A DNA stretch of 64,000 nt, taken from contig NZ_JACHWJ010000002.1 in assembly GCF_014191305.1 (NCBI RefSeq), forward strand, positions 1 to 64,000, in the 5' to 3' direction. Under the pieces are notes generated by a model, which saw nothing but the letters and a program-made list of their open reading frames with translations, did not search any database and was not told the origin of the DNA. The stretch comes from Pseudoclavibacter helvolus. GTDB taxonomy: Bacteria > Actinomycetota > Actinomycetes > Actinomycetales > Microbacteriaceae. The position numbers and the translations under genes are program-made. Of the stretch, positions 23,533 through 64,000 are shown one piece after another; the first letter of the stretch is position 1; every line of letters begins with the position of its first letter.

Positions 23533-23568
23533 GGCGGTGTGGAGAAGGGAAACCTTCTCCACACCGCC
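23533..23568 (+). terminator. Terminator after deoA
   Basis: A perfect 16-bp stem (GGCGGTGTGGAGAAGG and its complement) closed by a GAAA tetraloop, 7 nt after the deoA stop. No T-run. Confidence 0.8.
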
Positions 23569-39538: not shown

Positions 39539-39578
39539 TGGCCGGGTGCATCCGCTTTCCCGCGGATGCACCCGGCCA
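39539..39578 (+). terminator. ABC exporter operon terminator
   Basis: A perfect 17-bp stem with a 6-nt loop (TTTCCC), followed by TTTGCG. The arms contain GGTGCATCCGC / GCGGATGCACC, the same core as the ptsI terminator. Confidence 0.85.
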
Positions 39579-41510: not shown

Positions 41511-41574
41511 TCGGGATGGGTTCCGCACTTCGGGATGGGAAAGAACCCATCCCGAAGTGAGAAACCCATCCCGA
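41511..41574. repeat. 64-nt palindromic element, copy A
   Basis: Four CGGGATGG-type boxes (two direct, two inverted) make 29-nt arms (27/29 paired) around AAAGAA. Same length and box layout as the elements at 60473 and 61718. It lies after the oleate hydratase stop and before the small ORF on the minus strand. Confidence 0.85.
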
Positions 41575-50891: not shown

Positions 50892-50932
50892 AGAACGCCG
50901 GGCACCCGCGAAAGCGAGGTGCCCGGCGTTCT
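50892..50932. terminator. Terminator between the methyltransferase and lipoprotein genes
   Basis: 15-bp perfect stem (50892-50906 with 50918-50932) extended by a 3-bp stem capped with GAAA after a bulged A. It serves converging genes. Confidence 0.8.
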
Positions 50933-57182: not shown

Positions 57183-58322
57183 ATGGGTCAGGTCGTCGGC
57201 GTCATCGGAGCCGGGCAGCTCGCGCGAATGATGCTCCCACCCGCAATCGAGCTCGACGTTGATCTGCGCGTCTTCGCCGCAGGCCGCGGCGAGAGCGCAG
57301 ACCGGGCGGTCACAGCCGTCGGAGACATGCACGTGCTCGAGGAGGTGCTCGAGTTCGCGCGGGGCGTGGACGTGGTTACGTTCGACCACGAGCACGTGCC
57401 CCAGGACGTGCTGCGCGGACTCGTGGATGCGGGAATCGCCGTGCGCCCAGGGCCGCACGCCCTCCAGTACGCGCAGGACAAGCTCCTCATGCGCCAGCGC
57501 CTCGCTGAACTCGGCATCCCCATCCCCGAGTGGGCCGAGGTCCGCGACGAGACGGAGCTGCAGTCCTTCATCGACGCCAACGGGGGCGTCGCGGTGCTCA
57601 AGACCCCGCGAGGCGGCTACGACGGCAAGGGGGTGCGCATCGTCCGGTCCGGCGCAGAAGGCGCCGACTGGTTCGCGGACGGCAACCCGCTGCTCGTCGA
57701 AGAGCGCGTCGACTTCCGCCGCGAGCTGGCTCAGCTCGTCGCCAGGCGTCCATCAGGCGAGATCGCATTGTGGCCGATTGTCGAGACCGTGCAGCGCGAC
57801 GGTGTCTGCGCAGAGGTGCTCGCCCCGGCCCCAGGTGCGGAAGGCGCGGACGACCGCCTCGGCTACGTCGCCGCGACGATCGCACAGTCTGTCGCCCTCG
57901 GTCTCGACGTGACCGGCGTGCTGGCCGTCGAGCTCTTCGAGACGACCGACCAGCGCATCCTCGTCAACGAGCTCGCGATGCGCCCCCACAACTCGGGGCA
58001 CTGGACGATCGACGGGTCCATGACTAGCCAGTTCGAGCAGCACCTCCGCGCCGTGCTCGACCTCCCGCTTGGCGACACCGGCATGACCGCGCCGCACGCC
58101 GTCATGGTCAACGTGCTCGGCGGCCCTCAGGAGGGAAGCTACGGCGACAGGTACGAGAAGGCGATGCACGAGCATCCCGACGCGAAGATCCATAGCTACG
58201 GCAAGTCCGCGCGGCCCGGGCGGAAGGTCGGCCACGTGACGGTCGCTGGCCAAGACCTCGACGACGTCACCTACCGCGCGCGCGCCGCCGCGGGTGCCTT
58301 CGACGACAACAGCGCCTCCTGA
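57183..58322 (+). CDS. purK: 5-(carboxyamino)imidazole ribonucleotide synthase
   Basis: A 379-aa ATP-grasp enzyme making N5-CAIR from AIR, bicarbonate and ATP in purine synthesis. [20 protein letters not shown] is the opening, followed by [29 protein letters not shown] and the metal-binding [21 protein letters not shown] at 57183 with GGAG 6 nt upstream. purE follows after 106 nt but seems to have its own promoter. Confidence 0.95.
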
Positions 58323-58415
58323 GGCGAACCGGAGGAGCCGGGGAGGCTCAGCGAAGCGCGCTCTCGAGGCGGAACCTCACCGGCCAGCCTCAGCGTTGCC
58401 TGGCGCACGCGCGTC

Positions 58416-58421
58416 TACGCT
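58416..58421 (+). promoter_or_regulatory. -10 box, leaderless start of purE
   Basis: TACGCT, 7 nt before the ATG at 58429. Confidence 0.5.
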
Positions 58422-58428
58422 TGCACCC

Positions 58429-58977
58429 ATGAGCGACCACCCCACCGCATCGCCCGCGCCTGCGCCCGTGGACGCGGCCTCGCCGACCGGGCCGCTCGTC
58501 GGCATCATCATGGGCAGCGACAGCGACTGGCGCGTCATGCACGAGGCCCGGGACGTGCTTGCCGAATTCGGCGTCCCGGTCGAGGTCGAGGTCGTCTCGG
58601 CCCACCGAACCCCCGAGAAGCTCGTCAGCTACAGCCGCGAAGCACGAGACCGCGGCATCCGCGTCATCATCGCCGGAGCCGGAGGGGCCGCACACCTCCC
58701 CGGCATGGTCGCCTCCCTCACGACGCTCCCCGTCGTCGGCGTGCCGGTGCCGCTCAAGTACCTCGACGGCATGGACTCGCTGCTCTCGATCGTGCAGATG
58801 CCTGCAGGCATCCCAGTCGCGACCGTCTCCATCGGCGGAGCCAAGAACGCGGGAATCCTCGCCGCGCGCATCCTCGCCACAGGCGATCAAGCGCTCGCGG
58901 CCAGACTCGCCGACTACAGTGACGGACTGCGCGACGCCGTCGAAGCCAAGAACGACGCCCTCAAGCAGTCGCTCTAG
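58429..58977 (+). CDS. purE: N5-CAIR mutase
   Basis: A 182-aa enzyme converting N5-CAIR to CAIR. Motifs [60 protein letters not shown] and [20 protein letters not shown] are all intact. A Pro/Ala-rich stretch of about 20 residues precedes the fold. The ATG has no Shine-Dalgarno but sits 7 nt after TACGCT. It follows purK functionally and spatially. Confidence 0.95.
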
Positions 58978-59036
58978 CCCGAGAACCCTTCGGCCAGACC
59001 GTCGCAGCTGCCCTTGCTCCTCGACCGCAGGACCCC

Positions 59037-60425
59037 ATGACACTCACCCTCCCGCTCCGGTACCCGGACGCCAGCTCGCCGCAGCTTATGACCAGGCGCG
59101 CCTGGTGGCTGCTCATCGCGAACTTCTTCCTGCCAGGGACCGCGCAGGTGCTCGCCGGGAACCGCAAGCTCGGGCGCTTCATGCTGTCCCTCTGGCTCGG
59201 CGGAATCGCGGCGATCCTCGTCCTGGTGATCCTCGCCTTGGTGCTCCGCGGGCCCCTGCTGTTCGTGTTCTCCACGACGCTCGGCATCACGCTTGTGCAC
59301 CTGGTGCTGCTCTTCTACGTCGCCATGTGGGTCGTCAGCGGTCTTGATGCGCTCCGCCTCGTCCGCATCATCAAGCTCGAGCAGGTTGCGCGCCCGCTTA
59401 TCGCCATCGTCGGCGTGGTGCTCGTCACCGTGCCGCTCGTCTTCGCCGCCGTCACCTCGCAGATCGCCAACCAGGGCAAATCCGCCATCGAAGGCCTGTT
59501 CGGCGGTGCCTCGAACGGCATCCAGCTCCCCGCGGACGGCCAGCTCAACATCATGATGCTCGGCGGTGACCGCGGCGACGACCGAGAGGGCCTCCGCCCC
59601 GACTCCATCAGCGTCATGAGCTTCAACGCGTTCACCGGCAAGCTCACCACCATCGGCCTCCCACGCGCCATGGAGAGCTTCCCGTTCTCCGAGGGCCCCA
59701 TGCAGGACCTCTACCCGAACCTCTACGAGGGCTGCGCCGTCGACGCCTGCTACCTCAACTCCGTCTACACGGAGGCGACGATTTCCGAAGACGGCGGCTA
59801 CGCCGATGCCGCAGAGCATGGCTCAGAGCCAGGCATCGAAGCGATGCGCGACGCCGTCGAAGGCATTACCGGGCTGAGCATCCAGTACTACGTGCTCGTC
59901 GATATGGCCGGGTTCACCGAGCTCATCGACGCCCTCGGCGGCGTCGACATCAACGTCACCGAACGCGTCGGCATCGGCATCAACGATGACGGGTCACCCG
60001 GATGGGCGCCCGCGACGGAGTACATCGAGGTCGGGCAGCAGCACATGGACGGCTCGACGGCGCTCTGGTACGCCAGGTCCCGCTACGAGACCACCGACTT
60101 CGCGCGCATGGAGCGCCAGCGGCAGCTGCAGGAGGCCATGGTCGCGACCATGACCCCGGGCAATCTGCTCGGCAAGATCGGTCCGGTCACGGATGCGCTC
60201 GAGAAGGTCGTCCAGACCGACATTCCCGAGGGCATGATCGGCTACGTCGGCGACCTGCTCCTGAAGTCGCGCAGCGGCAACAGCGTGCGCCTCGACATCG
60301 TGCCGCCCAACTTCGACCAGGGCAACCCCGACATCCCGGGCATCCACGCCGCGGTCCAGGACGCGATCGCCTCCGACCCGCCTGAGACGACCCCGGCCCC
60401 CGAGGAAACCGCCCCCGCCGAGTAG
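59037..60425 (+). CDS. LytR-CpsA-Psr (LCP) family phosphotransferase
   Basis: A 462-aa membrane protein. Three N-terminal helices (about residues 25-45, 55-75, 80-100) and a fourth near 120-140 lead to the extracellular LCP domain: LNIMMLGGDRGDDREGLRPD with the conserved Arg/Asp, ITGLSIQYYVLVDMAGFTEL, LIDALGGVDINV and LWYARSRYETTDFARMERQR. It probably attaches glycopolymers to peptidoglycan, which fits GtrA, GT4 and rmlD nearby. The extra N-terminal helices beyond the usual single one are unusual. A Pro/Glu-rich tail ends the protein. Confidence 0.92.
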   Translation: MTLTLPLRYPDASSPQLMTRRAWWLLIANFFLPGTAQVLAGNRKLGRFMLSLWLGGIAAILVLVILALVLRGPLLFVFSTTLGITLVHLVLLFYVAMWVVSGLDALRLVRIIKLEQVARPLIAIVGVVLVTVPLVFAAVTSQIANQGKSAIEGLFGGASNGIQLPADGQLNIMMLGGDRGDDREGLRPDSISVMSFNAFTGKLTTIGLPRAMESFPFSEGPMQDLYPNLYEGCAVDACYLNSVYTEATISEDGGYADAAEHGSEPGIEAMRDAVEGITGLSIQYYVLVDMAGFTELIDALGGVDINVTERVGIGINDDGSPGWAPATEYIEVGQQHMDGSTALWYARSRYETTDFARMERQRQLQEAMVATMTPGNLLGKIGPVTDALEKVVQTDIPEGMIGYVGDLLLKSRSGNSVRLDIVPPNFDQGNPDIPGIHAAVQDAIASDPPETTPAPEETAPAE

Positions 60426-60472
60426 CGCCGCGCCCGCCCGGCTCGCCGCCCCCCGCGCGCGCCCGCGCAGTC

Positions 60473-60536
60473 TCAGGATGGGTTCGACGCTTCGGGATGG
60501 CTTGCAAGCCATCCCGAAGCTTGCAAGCCATCCCGA
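60473..60536. repeat. 64-nt palindromic element, copy B
   Basis: Same length and box layout as the copy at 61718 (58/64 identical by eye). The inner 32 nt (60489-60520) are a perfect palindrome. The right outer arm repeats TTGCAAGCCATCCCGA instead of matching the left outer arm. It lies after the LCP stop and the 3' end of the DUF559 gene. Confidence 0.85.
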
Positions 60537-60540
60537 GTCG

Positions 60541-60602
60541 AAGCCGCGGGCGACAGCGAAGCGATTTTGGGCGCGAAGCGACTCTGGGCACCAAGCCGCG
60601 GG
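60541..60602. repeat. Short direct repeats next to palindromic copy B
   Basis: A 17-nt unit is present twice in tandem (60556-60572, 60573-60589; 15/17 identical), flanked by a 10-nt direct repeat AAGCCGCGGG (60541-60550 and 60593-60602). Confidence 0.6.
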
Positions 60603-60614
60603 GAAGCCGTTGCA

Positions 60615-61580
60615 TTAGGACGCGCGGCTGCGTCGCAGTGCCGTGCGCAGCTGTGAAAAGAATGCGGTCGGGTTGGCGAGGTCTCGGTTGGTGACGCGGA
60701 TCACCGTCCAACCAGCTTGCTGGAGACGATTGATCCTGGCGAGGTCTTCCATCGCCTGCTTCTTCTCCCAGTGGTACTCGCCGTCATATTCGACCGCGAC
60801 TTTCGCCTCGGGATAGGCGAGATCAACGCGTCCGACGAATGCGCCCCCGTCGAGTACGCGATACCCGACTGCTGGTTCTCGGAAACCTGCATCGAGGATC
60901 AGGAGCCGGGTGAGCGTCTCCATGGGGGATTCGGCTCCGGGGCGGATCAACGTGAGGGCTGCCCGCATCCGGGTCGCGCCGACGGTGCGCCCCCAGGAAT
61001 CGGCCACGGCTTGCAGCTCGACGAGTTCGGCGAGCGGCGGAACGGGGTCGTAGGGATTCTCGGAGACCGTTGGGTCGTATGGCCGGTTGATGCCCCTGTA
61101 GCTGCGGGAGGAGGTCACAAGCGCGTCGCCGACGGTGACGAGCTCTCGAGCCGTCAGCACGCGCGCGAGGAGGGCCCAAGTGAGTGGAGGAGTTGCGAGT
61201 GAGACCCCGAACTCCATCGTTCTGGCCCAGTTCGAAGCCTGGATGCTCCTCGCCCGGATGCCGGCCCCTCGCGGCTTGTTGCGGCCGGACGGAACGACGA
61301 TGTGCACTGTCGTCTCGGCATCGAAGCGACGTGTGAGCGGGAGGCCCCAGAGGCGCGCGGCGGTCGTGTCGCCGAGTGCATGCCAGTCGCGCATTCGTGG
61401 GGAGAAGGCACGGGCGTAGTCGACTGCCGACTCGACTGGACGAGTCGTGAAGACACCGCGGTGTGGCCGCCCGTAGTCGCCGCCGTAGAGTTCGCGCGCA
61501 CTGATGCCGGCGTTCTGGCCGTCGCGTGTCGTGAACGCATGCATTCGTGCATCCGCGCGGTCGTGTTCCTGCGATTCCAT
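60615..61580 (-). CDS. DUF559-type nuclease-like protein with AbiEi-like N-terminal region
   Basis: A 321-aa protein. The C-terminal third (FVGRVDLAYPEAKVAVEYDG, then YHWEKKQAMEDLARINRLQQ and GWTVIRVTNRDL) is a DUF559/Vsr-like PD-(D/E)xK fold with D, E and downstream K/R candidates. The N-terminal part (ISARELYGGDYGRPHRGVFT, DTTAARLWGLPLTRRF) looks like the winged-helix/cupin part of type IV antitoxin-like proteins common in actinobacteria. Nuclease activity is inferred. The ATG at 61580 lies 7 nt after TACTGT, so I prefer it to the GTG at 61589. The gene is bracketed by two palindromic elements. Confidence 0.75.
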   Translation of the reverse strand: MESQEHDRADARMHAFTTRDGQNAGISARELYGGDYGRPHRGVFTTRPVESAVDYARAFSPRMRDWHALGDTTAARLWGLPLTRRFDAETTVHIVVPSGRNKPRGAGIRARSIQASNWARTMEFGVSLATPPLTWALLARVLTARELVTVGDALVTSSRSYRGINRPYDPTVSENPYDPVPPLAELVELQAVADSWGRTVGATRMRAALTLIRPGAESPMETLTRLLILDAGFREPAVGYRVLDGGAFVGRVDLAYPEAKVAVEYDGEYHWEKKQAMEDLARINRLQQAGWTVIRVTNRDLANPTAFFSQLRTALRRSRAS

Positions 61581-61587
61581 GTCCGCC

Positions 61588-61593
61588 ACAGTA
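61588..61593 (-). promoter_or_regulatory. -10 box, leaderless start of the DUF559 gene
   Basis: TACTGT on the minus strand, 7 nt before the ATG at 61580. Confidence 0.45.
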
Positions 61594-61619
61594 GGGATCC
61601 ATGAGTGAGTGACCGGGAC

Positions 61620-61628
61620 TTATCCACA
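61620..61628 (+). promoter_or_regulatory. Perfect DnaA-box sequence
   Basis: TTATCCACA about 40 nt upstream of the DUF559 gene start, in the non-coding stretch 61594-61717 that otherwise shows nothing. Confidence 0.45.
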
Positions 61629-61717
61629 GGTGGCAGGTGCCACGTGTCGAGCGCATGTGCCCGGTCGCAGCATCCGCTAGCGCAACTCGCTGACGGTCGC
61701 CACTCAAGAGCCTGATC

Positions 61718-61781
61718 TCGGGATGGGTTTCACGCTTCGGGATGGCTTGCAAGCCATCCCGAAGCGTGAAACCCATCCCGA
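61718..61781. repeat. 64-nt perfect palindrome, copy C of the element family
   Basis: Arms 61718-61749 and 61750-61781 are exactly complementary over 32 bp with no spacer. The half-site has two CGGGATGG boxes separated by GTTTCACGCTT. It lies between the DUF559 gene start and the 3' end of the next minus-strand gene. Confidence 0.92.
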
Positions 61782-61796
61782 AAAGTCGGGCGGGTG

Positions 61797-61870
61797 GCGG
61801 CGACGCGGAGGGGCGACGCGGAGTGGCGGAGTGGCGGAGGGGCGACATGGAGGGGCGGCGGGCGTCGAGA
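61797..61870. repeat. Purine-rich imperfect tandem repeats
   Basis: Iterated GGCGGAG / GGGGCGAC units on the plus strand between palindrome C and the 3' end of the membrane protein gene. No ORF here looks real. Confidence 0.5.
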
Positions 61871-61885
61871 CGGCGCGCAGCGGCG

Positions 61886-62594
61886 TCAGAGGCCGCGAGG
61901 GGCGAAGAACGCGAGCCAAAGGAAGAGAAGGCCCGCGACGGCGAGCAGGATCGCCAGGGTGCGACGGTAGTCCCACGTGGCGGCCTTGGAGTAGAAGCCG
62001 ACGACGCGCGCCGTGACCGACGGGATCTTCGTCCAGATCCAGGCGAGTGCGAGGAACGGAGCGGCCAACGCGACGAGGAAGACCGCGTAGGCGGCGATGC
62101 GCAGCAGGTCGTCAGGCGTGAGGCCGTGGATGAGACGACCGGTGAGGTACATGATCGGGAGCGTCGTGAAGCCGACGCACGCCCCGAGCCCCAGCAGGAA
62201 ATACGCGGTACCGGATGCGCGGGGCTTCGACGGCGCCTTGGCCTTCTTAGGAAATTCCAGGATGCGCGCACGCCAGACAAGCACCACCGCGGCGGAGACC
62301 AGGAAGATGATGCCGACGACGAGGTCGATCGTCCGGTTGAGGAGCGCCGCGTCGAGGCTCCCGCGGAACCTGGTCACGAGTCGTGGGGTCGAAGCTCCGG
62401 AAGACGAGTAGGAGCGTCGTGGTGCCGACCGCGAGCCCGAGGAGCATCCACGCGAGCCGCTTGGAGACGTCGACGTTGCGGGCGAGCACGTCACCGGTCG
62501 CGGCGTAGAGGGCTGGGTTGAGACCCATGGCGAGGCCGAACCCGCACAGCGTGAGGAGCGAGGTTCCCCAGCGCAGCACTTCGTCCAACGTCAC
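61886..62594 (-). pseudogene. Polytopic membrane protein (GAP/Sap-like), frameshifted
   Basis: The first frame (GTG at 62594) gives LLTLCGFGLAMGLNPALYAA and KRLAWMLLGLAVGTTTLLLV then breaks after RSFDP. The second frame resumes at RLVTRFRGSLDAALLNRTID and continues through further helices to FFAPRGL. Deleting one C from the CCCC run (plus-strand GGGG, 62385-62388) joins them into a roughly 235-aa protein with about six helices. The pattern suggests a GAP/sulfolipid-addressing or LysE-like exporter; this is tentative. It follows the GT4 gene by 36 nt and may share the rmlD operon. Confidence 0.75.
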
Positions 62595-62630
62595 TCCAAG
62601 TCTCGCGCCGGGACAGCCTCGCTGGTGCGC

Positions 62631-63788
62631 CTAGAGGTCGGCGTGGAAGTTCCAGATCTGGTCTGCCGAGATCTCCCACGAGAACATTCCGCCGCGGTCC
62701 TTGCCTGCCAGGCGCAGTCGGCGCTCGAGATCGCTGTCGGCGAGGACTCCCGCGATGGCGCCCGCGAGACGCTCAGGGTAGCCGGCGTCGGCGATGCCGT
62801 CGCCTCGCTCGACGACGAGGGTCGCGTCGAGTCCTACCTCGACAAGCGCCGGGTCGTCGGAGGTGATGACCGGGGTGCCGAACTTGAAGGCCTCGATGAT
62901 GGGCAGGCCGAATCCGGCGCTGAGGCTCGGCACGACGAGGGCGCTGGCGCGCTGCAGTGCGACGGCGAGCTGCTCATCGGTGATGACGCCAACGGCGACG
63001 ACACGTTCGCTTTCGATTCCGGACTCGCTGACCAGTGCGTCGAGGGTGACCTCGCCGCGTTCGGTCGGGCCGACGACGACGAGCTTGACGCCGTCGAGGC
63101 CCTTGTCGCCGAGCGCCTTGAGGAGCTGGGCGAGGCCGTGGCGCTTGTGCAGCGACGCGAGCGTGATGATGTACTCGTCAGGCAGGCCGAGGGACTCTGC
63201 GATGGCGTCCCCTGCCTCCTCTGAACCCGGGAGTTGGATGCTGGCTGCCGCGGCCGGGCTCATGACTCGCACGCGGTCGCCGAAGTCGTAGTGCTCGATG
63301 ACCTGGTCAGCGACGGCATTGGTGGGCACGACGATCCCGCTTGCGTAGCGGAACGCCCGGCGCAGGAGCGCCTTGTGATGCTTGGTCGTGTGCGCGCTGA
63401 CGAGCTCTGGGTGCGTGAACGCCGTCATGTCGTGCCAGGTGACCACGGTCTGGTCGATGCCCTGGCTCAGCGAGATGTCGCGCATCGGCGCGAGCGGCGT
63501 GAAGCTGTGGATGAACCCGCCGCCGACGGAGTTCGTCAGCAGCCCGCGGGACCAAGAGGACTCGAGGCGCTCCGGGCGGAGCGGAGCTTGAACGACGCTG
63601 CTGAGCCCGGGGACGCGCTCCTCGAGGAGGGCGACCTCCTCGCGTGAGCGCTTGGGGATGATCGCCTCCACGTCGCAGCCGCGGGGCGCGCGCGTGATGA
63701 GCTGACGCCCAAGCTCTTCGCTGTAGCGCCTGGTTCCGCCTGGGCGCTCGTCGGCGGCGCGATCGAGCAGGACACGAAGGGTAACCAT
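62631..63788 (-). CDS. GT4 glycosyltransferase
   Basis: A 385-aa GT-B enzyme. The N-terminal domain starts MVTLRVLLDRAADERPGGTR, and the donor half shows ITLASLHKRHGLAQLLKALG, VVPSLSAGFGLPIIEAFKFG (ExxxxxxxE-type region) and VITSDDPALVEVG. Probably builds a cell-surface polysaccharide. Its ATG shares a base with the stop of rmlD (TGATG), so a deoxysugar, possibly rhamnose, is a reasonable donor guess. Confidence 0.85.
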   Translation of the reverse strand: MVTLRVLLDRAADERPGGTRRYSEELGRQLITRAPRGCDVEAIIPKRSREEVALLEERVPGLSSVVQAPLRPERLESSWSRGLLTNSVGGGFIHSFTPLAPMRDISLSQGIDQTVVTWHDMTAFTHPELVSAHTTKHHKALLRRAFRYASGIVVPTNAVADQVIEHYDFGDRVRVMSPAAAASIQLPGSEEAGDAIAESLGLPDEYIITLASLHKRHGLAQLLKALGDKGLDGVKLVVVGPTERGEVTLDALVSESGIESERVVAVGVITDEQLAVALQRASALVVPSLSAGFGLPIIEAFKFGTPVITSDDPALVEVGLDATLVVERGDGIADAGYPERLAGAIAGVLADSDLERRLRLAGKDRGGMFSWEISADQIWNFHADL

Positions 63789-64000
63789 CAGGTGTTGAGG
63801 ACTCCTTGGGCGGCGGCGTCTTCGAGTGCTTCGAGCCAGGGCCGCATGGGTGGAACCCCCGCGTTCGTCCAGGCGTCGTGGCCGAGGACGGAGTACGCGG
63901 GGCGAGGGGCCGGACGCACAAAGGCGGTGCTGTCCGTCTTCTTCACGTTCTCGGGATCGAAACCCGCGAGGCGGAAGATCTCTCGGGCGAAGTCGTACCA
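63788..64000 (-). CDS. rmlD: dTDP-4-dehydrorhamnose reductase, C-terminal part (runs off the window)
   Basis: The minus strand from the window edge reads WYDFAREIFRLAGFDPENVK, then FVRPAPRPAYSVLGHDAW and a final ALEDAAAQGVLNT before the TGA. This is the C-terminus of RmlD, the last enzyme of dTDP-L-rhamnose synthesis: the RPxPRPxYSVLGxxxW segment is highly characteristic. 70 residues are present. It is coupled to the GT4 gene. Confidence 0.88.
   Translation of the reverse strand, partial: WYDFAREIFRLAGFDPENVKKTDSTAFVRPAPRPAYSVLGHDAWTNAGVPPMRPWLEALEDAAAQGVLNT

Follow-up and report, generated by a model that had tools for sequence, protein, structure and literature searches.

A nearly fixed-length four-box palindromic repeat of Pseudoclavibacter with REP-like traits and a bias towards gene 3' ends

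What maintains a perfect 64-bp palindrome between genes of Pseudoclavibacter helvolus, and is it a hairpin of the transcript or a repeat unit of the DNA? The question arises from a stretch of 64,000 nucleotides at the start of contig NZ_JACHWJ010000002.1 (hereafter the window), where an earlier note had described this element and two relatives and had taken them for a mobile or selected REP/MITE-like unit. The features on which the analysis turns are the following.

61718..61781, no strand: perfect 64-bp palindromic element (the reported copy), 92.2 and 91.2 bits on its two strands
61719..61726, + strand: outer box CGGGATGG, forward
61738..61745, + strand: inner box CGGGATGG, forward, 19 nt from the outer box
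61754..61761, - strand: inner box, reverse
61773..61780, - strand: outer box, reverse
60473..60536, no strand: 64-nt family copy with 27/32 pairs and one mismatched box, between convergent genes
41511..41574, no strand: 64-nt family copy with 27/32 pairs, between convergent genes
59037..60425, + strand: LytR-CpsA-Psr gene upstream of the copy at 60473, used as anchor for comparison between species
60615..61589, - strand: DUF559-domain gene (DUF559, 3.4e-07) between the copies at 60473 and 61718, a candidate partner

The anatomy described earlier was borne out. The reported copy is its own reverse complement at 64/64 positions, with 32-bp arms that meet without a loop and four CGGGATGG boxes starting at 61719 and 61738 (forward) and at 61754 and 61773 (reverse), while the two relatives match it in length and box placement, with 5 mismatched pairs each. 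All four boxes are exact in the copy at 41511-41574 and three in that at 60473-60536, the fourth carrying one mismatch (CAGGATGG). With loops of up to 12 nt allowed, no perfect inverted repeat in the window is longer than the reported copy; outside the 64-bp family the arms reach 17 bp at best, and a hand estimate from the base composition of the window puts the chance occurrence of one 32-bp palindrome at ~1e-13 per window. The folding energy of the element is -70.6 kcal/mol for 81 nt (z -14). The description "best copy" holds in that the copy at 61718 is perfect, but it shares this status, with 3/44 scored P. helvolus copies being perfect. Shorter hairpins with 15-17-bp arms also lie in the window, at 2060-2097, 23533-23568, 39539-39578 and 50892-50932.

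The family extends far beyond the window. A covariance model built from 20 P. helvolus copies (alignment A1) detects 45 loci in the 3.84-Mb genome through 89 matches, each of which covers model positions 1-72; the weakest loci include C3:191099, with 21/34 box letters, and C5:397993, at 34 bits. The possibility that only the three window copies exist, which the earlier note had raised against itself, is thereby removed. The same applies to its second reservation, that length might vary freely, since box gaps in this genome are nearly constant even when left free: with spacers of 6-20 allowed, 39/40 box pairs (18 + 22 on the two strands) have a spacer of 11 and one has 13, and with gaps of 4-32 allowed, the 38 forward-to-reverse box matches per strand all show gaps of exactly 8 or 27. 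Across 814 kb from five genomes, composed of loci chosen for holding copies and scanned with at most one mismatch per box, 178 box pairs span 64, compared with 9 in total for all other spans of 55-75. The length is nearly, not wholly, fixed, because some model matches in relatives are at least one base shorter or longer. A second inner type without inner boxes also keeps the length (C5:204382 of P. helvolus and its counterparts in congeners G004 and G007). The five genomes together yield a set of 196 copies, which 44/45 P. helvolus loci entered and which is no census, the relatives' copies having been fetched because they hold matches. The arms are mosaic, with a few recurrent variants, and the element is locally duplicated in tandem at several loci.

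Each copy ends sharply. Moving outward from the 64-mer, the flanks are complementary at positions 1-3 in 103, 105 and 121 of the 196 copies and at positions 4-12 in 45-65, giving the family an edge consensus of GTY-64-RAC. Direct flank repeats of the kind left by target duplication are not in excess in these 196 copies (2-6, 8 and 9 nt; boundaries 0-8 nt outside), and likeness between the flanks of P. helvolus copies is near background (7 versus 5 of 3784 comparisons). These three observations indicate that the copies are discrete units, and the last rejects the copying of larger tracts together with their flanks. No GTAG end tag was found, the outward flanks of 44 P. helvolus copies reading mostly R, A, C and then G/T/C; nor is there a CGTC end tag, as the base adjoining the 64-mer is T or C, the fourth is mixed and CGTC occurs in some copies only. 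Internally, C at spacer positions 14, 16 and 18 is kept in 82, 96 and 90%, beyond what pairing demands.

Of the 45 P. helvolus loci, 24 are flanked by convergent, 16 by tandem and 3 by divergent genes, and the remaining 2 fall within an ORF; neighbour pairs in the DNA around these copies number 187 tandem, 57 convergent and 54 divergent. Expressed per kb of intergenic DNA around copies, this amounts to ~2.9 copies in convergent, 0.7 in tandem and 0.24 in divergent gaps. In all five genomes, 123 of the 196 copies are convergent, 58 tandem, 11 inside genes and 4 divergent, with tandem arrays counted copywise and gene calls taken from a home-made codon-score caller and a simple ORF picker. That all copies lie between genes at 3' ends, as stated earlier, is accurate in the window, where two copies are convergent and one is tandem, and is only a bias for the family as a whole. 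One copy inside a gene is shared by 5/5 genomes, in frame within mazG (PF03819), and the mazG of congener G001 (P. terrae) contains four in-frame tandem 102-bp units (34 codons) with the element (L056:2816-3185, on G001:C1).

Such a distribution, with the highest density in convergent intergenic DNA and 24/45 loci in that setting, would suit bidirectional intrinsic terminators or stabilising 3' hairpins, for which selection would keep an RNA hairpin and the likeness in sequence would be left over from recombinational copying. The strong folding energy and the compensatory changes described below also fit this explanation, which we regard as possible but unlikely. A terminator scan of 58000-63800, covering the copies at 60473 and 61718 (that at 41511 lies outside it), detected two terminator-like sites with T-tracts, neither of them at either copy. 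The nearly exact length, the conservation of the boxes beyond pairing and the in-frame mazG copy in all five genomes are likewise at odds with a terminator. As the whole explanation, an ordinary terminator is rejected on these grounds together with the kind of mismatch found in the stems.

These mismatches were considered alongside the covariation of the arms. At 61 orthologous pairs, which are restricted to single-copy sites and are not independent of one another, 70/93 double changes preserve Watson-Crick pairing; the 93 double changes compare with 36.9 expected for independent arms and stand beside 123 one-sided changes. The arms thus change in a compensatory manner at orthologous sites, and the lack of arm covariation that the earlier note had named as fatal to its proposal is not what we see. 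Among the 20 P. helvolus copies, the covariation score, the paired cells and the double-change cells exceed all 500 shuffles, while pairs that show a double change (9 versus 9.8) and further pair types (22 versus 24.1) are no more numerous than in the shuffles. In Bacillus cereus terminators, G-U is the most frequent intermediate according to passages of PMC5381666. Read in the direction of transcription, the stems of 57 distinct tandem copies from five genomes contain 39 G-T and 48 A-C mismatches; tandem copies within 150 nt of the upstream stop have 22 and 28, and taking one copy per locus (39 loci) gives means of 25.3 and 27.0. Ordinary hairpins at copy-free tandem gene ends of P. helvolus show 12 G-T and 3 A-C (16 hairpins at 103 ends), a ratio that differs from that of the element with a Fisher value of 0.023, which is rough because the copies are related. 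Since convergent copies give 104 to 174 without a defined direction, the cells are over-dispersed, and for this reason too the p-value is rough. In small numbers of mismatches from related copies, the element shows no G-U excess of the kind expected from RNA-level selection, whereas the local control hairpins do show one. The mismatch counts oppose, though not strongly, the idea that pairing is maintained chiefly by selection on the transcript.

Comparison with relatives places the family in one clade. The exact pattern occurs in 5/40 genomes, all of one genus, namely P. helvolus itself and four congeners, with none in five other congeners. In a draw of 299 host-family genomes that did not contain G007, the model matches five: P. 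helvolus, three congeners and, by one weak single match, a member of another genus. Exact-pattern matches in named records amount to 9 stretches from three Pseudoclavibacter strains; viral contigs gave 0 matches for two exact patterns, and plasmids gave no BLAST match to the element. Each of the five clade genomes carries at least one copy at the LytR-CpsA-Psr site (60473). The corresponding stretches of G002, G003, G005, G008 and G009 have no model match, the contig of G005 ending there. In G002, a congener without a pattern match to the 64-bp family, a 59-nt inverted repeat of other sequence with 28-bp arms lies 675-733 nt past the LytR-CpsA-Psr stop (L166).

Six P. helvolus sites were compared with four congeners. 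At site 204382, G004 and G007 each carry a copy, and the ~1-kb gaps of G006 and G001 contain none; site 330421 is matched by four copies in tandem in G007 and by a shortened one in G001, G004 and G006 being without a copy; and site 333185 has no copy in G006 and G004, its flanks lying ~8 kb apart in G001 and G007. At site 334871, G006 has a copy with 16/18 outer letters inside a longer gap, G001 and G004 lack a copy at the place to which the flanks map, and G007 was not bridged, as was the case in all four congeners for the flanks of sites 200295 and 201515. Hence at 4/6 sites one or more congeners lack the copy; none of these is a clean empty site, as the surroundings differ there too. Many sites are common to several species, so many copies are not recent insertions. 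What takes the place of a missing element bears on the terminator explanation from both sides. In G006, an unrelated 25-bp hairpin (25/25 pairs) replaces the element at site 333185 and another hairpin (14/15 pairs) stands at site 330421, as would be expected if a hairpin were needed at these gene ends; but the aligned G004 sequence at 333185 has no good hairpin (best 6 pairs), and a hairpin is therefore not kept at this site.

An enzyme that might have spread the units was sought through the Y1/RAYT transposase domain PF01797, to which the enzyme search was limited. It is absent from the P. helvolus genome (97.2% complete) and from all nine congeners (one of them 83% complete), while a control search was positive in 5/14 known genomes. 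The earlier statement that the window holds no RAYT gene thus extends to ten genomes, and a RAYT-driven REP is rejected as an explanation. A candidate partner of the element is the DUF559-domain gene at 60615-61589, whose protein also matches REase_MTES_1575 below the cut-off; we take DUF559 to belong to a PD-(D/E)XK-like class. It lies between copies in 5/5 genomes (P. helvolus, G001, G004, G006 and G007), with the open frame of the four counterparts 0-65 nt from the nearest copy on each side, and no other gene at the fetched loci was found between two copies in all five genomes. VDLAYP, EYDG and HW are residue for residue the same in 5/5 proteins, although these proteins are 52-79% identical to that of P. 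helvolus and the neighbouring LytR-CpsA-Psr protein is 94-98% identical. Shared descent explains this arrangement as well as a functional link does. As a general partner of such elements DUF559 is rejected: no DUF559 ORF was found with the window protein (phmmer) in the fetched stretches of the more distant array carriers described next, and a short-chain dehydrogenase gene also lies between two P. helvolus copies, 158 and 272 nt away.

Similar arrays occur outside the genus. Model matches were obtained in 12/396 genomes of the order, P. helvolus included, and five of the matching genomes belong to genus g153. There, 14 stretches from four genomes (L249-L262) contain mirrored arrays of a unit near ATCCGGATAGGTTANNNNN, with 2-5 units per arm, steps of 19 in 43/44 forward and 43/43 reverse cases (86/87 on the same strand) and centres of 13 in 21/21. 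Facing spacers in these arrays are complementary at 83/168 positions versus 109 on average in shuffles, which gives the impression that perfect palindromes are avoided. In genome G578, the seven copies seen are each exactly 63 nt long and have TCGGGACGGGTT-type boxes (L264-L268); 6/7 of them lie 26-36 nt past the stop of the picked upstream ORF. Judged by eye, all seven have a G-G or C-C mismatch near the loop and one has a further mismatch. The g153 and G578 arrays clearly resemble the Pseudoclavibacter family in architecture and may be related to it by descent. Two further palindromes came to light: a single perfect one of 64 bp with CGGGGTGG ends in G072, of another genus of the same host family (L098:1506-1569), and a different one in G499 (L246) that has the apex alone in common with the 64-bp family. 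One may speculate, with little confidence, that mirrored 19-nt arrays form a class over several Micrococcales families, each genus with its own box, recognised and propagated by a protein not linked to REPs; in Pseudoclavibacter this protein could be DUF559, in a parallel to the role of RAYT for REPs.

The same arrays invite another explanation, namely that the elements are arrays of sites for a duplex-binding protein (nucleoid, roadblock or insulator), with a mirrored 19-nt operator and the hairpin as a by-product of symmetry. The strict 19-nt module and the non-complementary facing spacers of the g153 arrays agree with it. In P. helvolus, facing spacers are complementary at 338/440 positions versus a shuffled mean of 287 and maximum of 316, and they covary between species, neither of which site arrays would need, and we consider this explanation rather improbable. 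That the repeat is neutral and kept palindromic by template switching between the arms (quasi-palindrome correction) is very improbable, for it accommodates compensation without G-U bias, the mosaic arms and the local tandem duplications but leaves the conserved boxes, the fixed length over divergent inner sequences and the 3'-end bias unexplained.

How does the family relate to known systems? It satisfies a wide-sense, untagged description of REP-like elements, comprising tens of dispersed, mainly extragenic palindromes of common sequence. Uptake-sequence hairpins (DUS/USS) go with many isolated box copies in the genome; among 100 listed of 157 box matches in P. helvolus, all are in or directly beside known copies. 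The same 100 matches bear on the full-length element with identical ends that a MITE would have. Rickettsia palindromic elements insert in protein genes and differ from the 64-bp family in size and sequence. The mazG copies resemble them as palindromic repeats in frame inside a protein gene, but most copies of the 64-bp family are intergenic. These Rickettsia elements are named in a passage of PMC3733652, other passages of which describe REP/BIME and CGTC-tagged repeats as 20-40 bp long, situated mostly between unidirectional and convergent ORFs and in some cases inside genes; the CGTC repeats seem to have no transposase of their own, some REP-like families (M. tuberculosis included) are said to be without conserved terminal motifs, and frequent GT pairing in repeat stems is cited. 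Like REP/BIME and CGTC repeats, the elements described here are short multi-copy palindromes mostly between genes and sometimes inside them; unlike them, they have 64 bp, four boxes, no GTAG or CGTC tag, no GT excess and no Y1 transposase that could be found. With REPINs and REPtrons, as characterised in parts of PMC2817692 and PMC3116915 (for REPtrons also PMC3733652), they share paired inverted units and a gene flanked by repeats on both sides, here DUF559; they differ in that no RAYT was found and in that the flanked gene is of the DUF559 type, its link being positional only. RepRanger lists putative Actinomycetota REPs by counts, Arthrobacter livingstonensis among them, and the elements seen there are palindromic, extragenic and actinobacterial like ours; the Actinomycetota rows consulted in PMC12306157 contain no family of this box or length. 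Bidirectional intrinsic terminators, to judge from the passages of PMC5381666, share with the family the hairpin at convergent gene ends and compensatory change, and are set apart from it by the fixed length, the sequence common to 45 loci, the missing T-run at two copies and the missing G-U excess. Rfam gave 0 matches in the window at gathering score, titles and abstract starts of the Pseudoclavibacter palindrome literature name no such repeat, four 13-nt box strings returned only an unrelated occurrence in the literature, and the sections consulted of PMC2267715 hold nothing on the 64-bp family. "REP-like" is a fair description because of the 45 loci, the near-fixed length and the covarying arms, and this half of the earlier proposal stands. 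The MITE half does not in the strict sense, as neither target duplication nor a linked transposase of the Y1/RAYT kind was found. We class the family among REP-like palindromic repeats, taken in the wide sense, as one without tag or RAYT that is novel in its four-box 19-nt build and near-fixed length.

On balance, we lean towards reading the element as a clade-specific REP-like palindromic repeat, RAYT-less, recognised at the DNA level and tolerated or used at gene 3' ends. It would be a discrete unit of 64 bp, or ~70 bp with its weaker GTY...RAC edges, built from four ~19-nt modules in the order forward-forward-reverse-reverse. An element-specific protein would recognise the module as DNA, either as duplex or as extruded hairpin; we infer this from box and spacer positions that are more constant than pairing requires and from mismatches without G-U bias. 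Dispersal as discrete units, a mobility that we infer from the anatomy, would have been the work of an enzyme that is not Y1/RAYT or is no longer present, followed by vertical retention. Copies would survive mostly at gene 3' ends, where they do least damage, and may there end or separate transcripts from both sides. Against this reading, the sites common to species (the 61 orthologous pairs) would be expected equally of a retained function and of an ancient repeat.

Most knowledge of REP-type repeats comes from Gram-negative bacteria that carry RAYT enzymes. A RAYT-less actinobacterial family of near-fixed length, in which compensation does not look RNA-driven, makes the question of DNA or RNA testable on natural variants and raises that of what copies such palindromes, for which the mazG copies and the DUF559 neighbour are concrete starting places.
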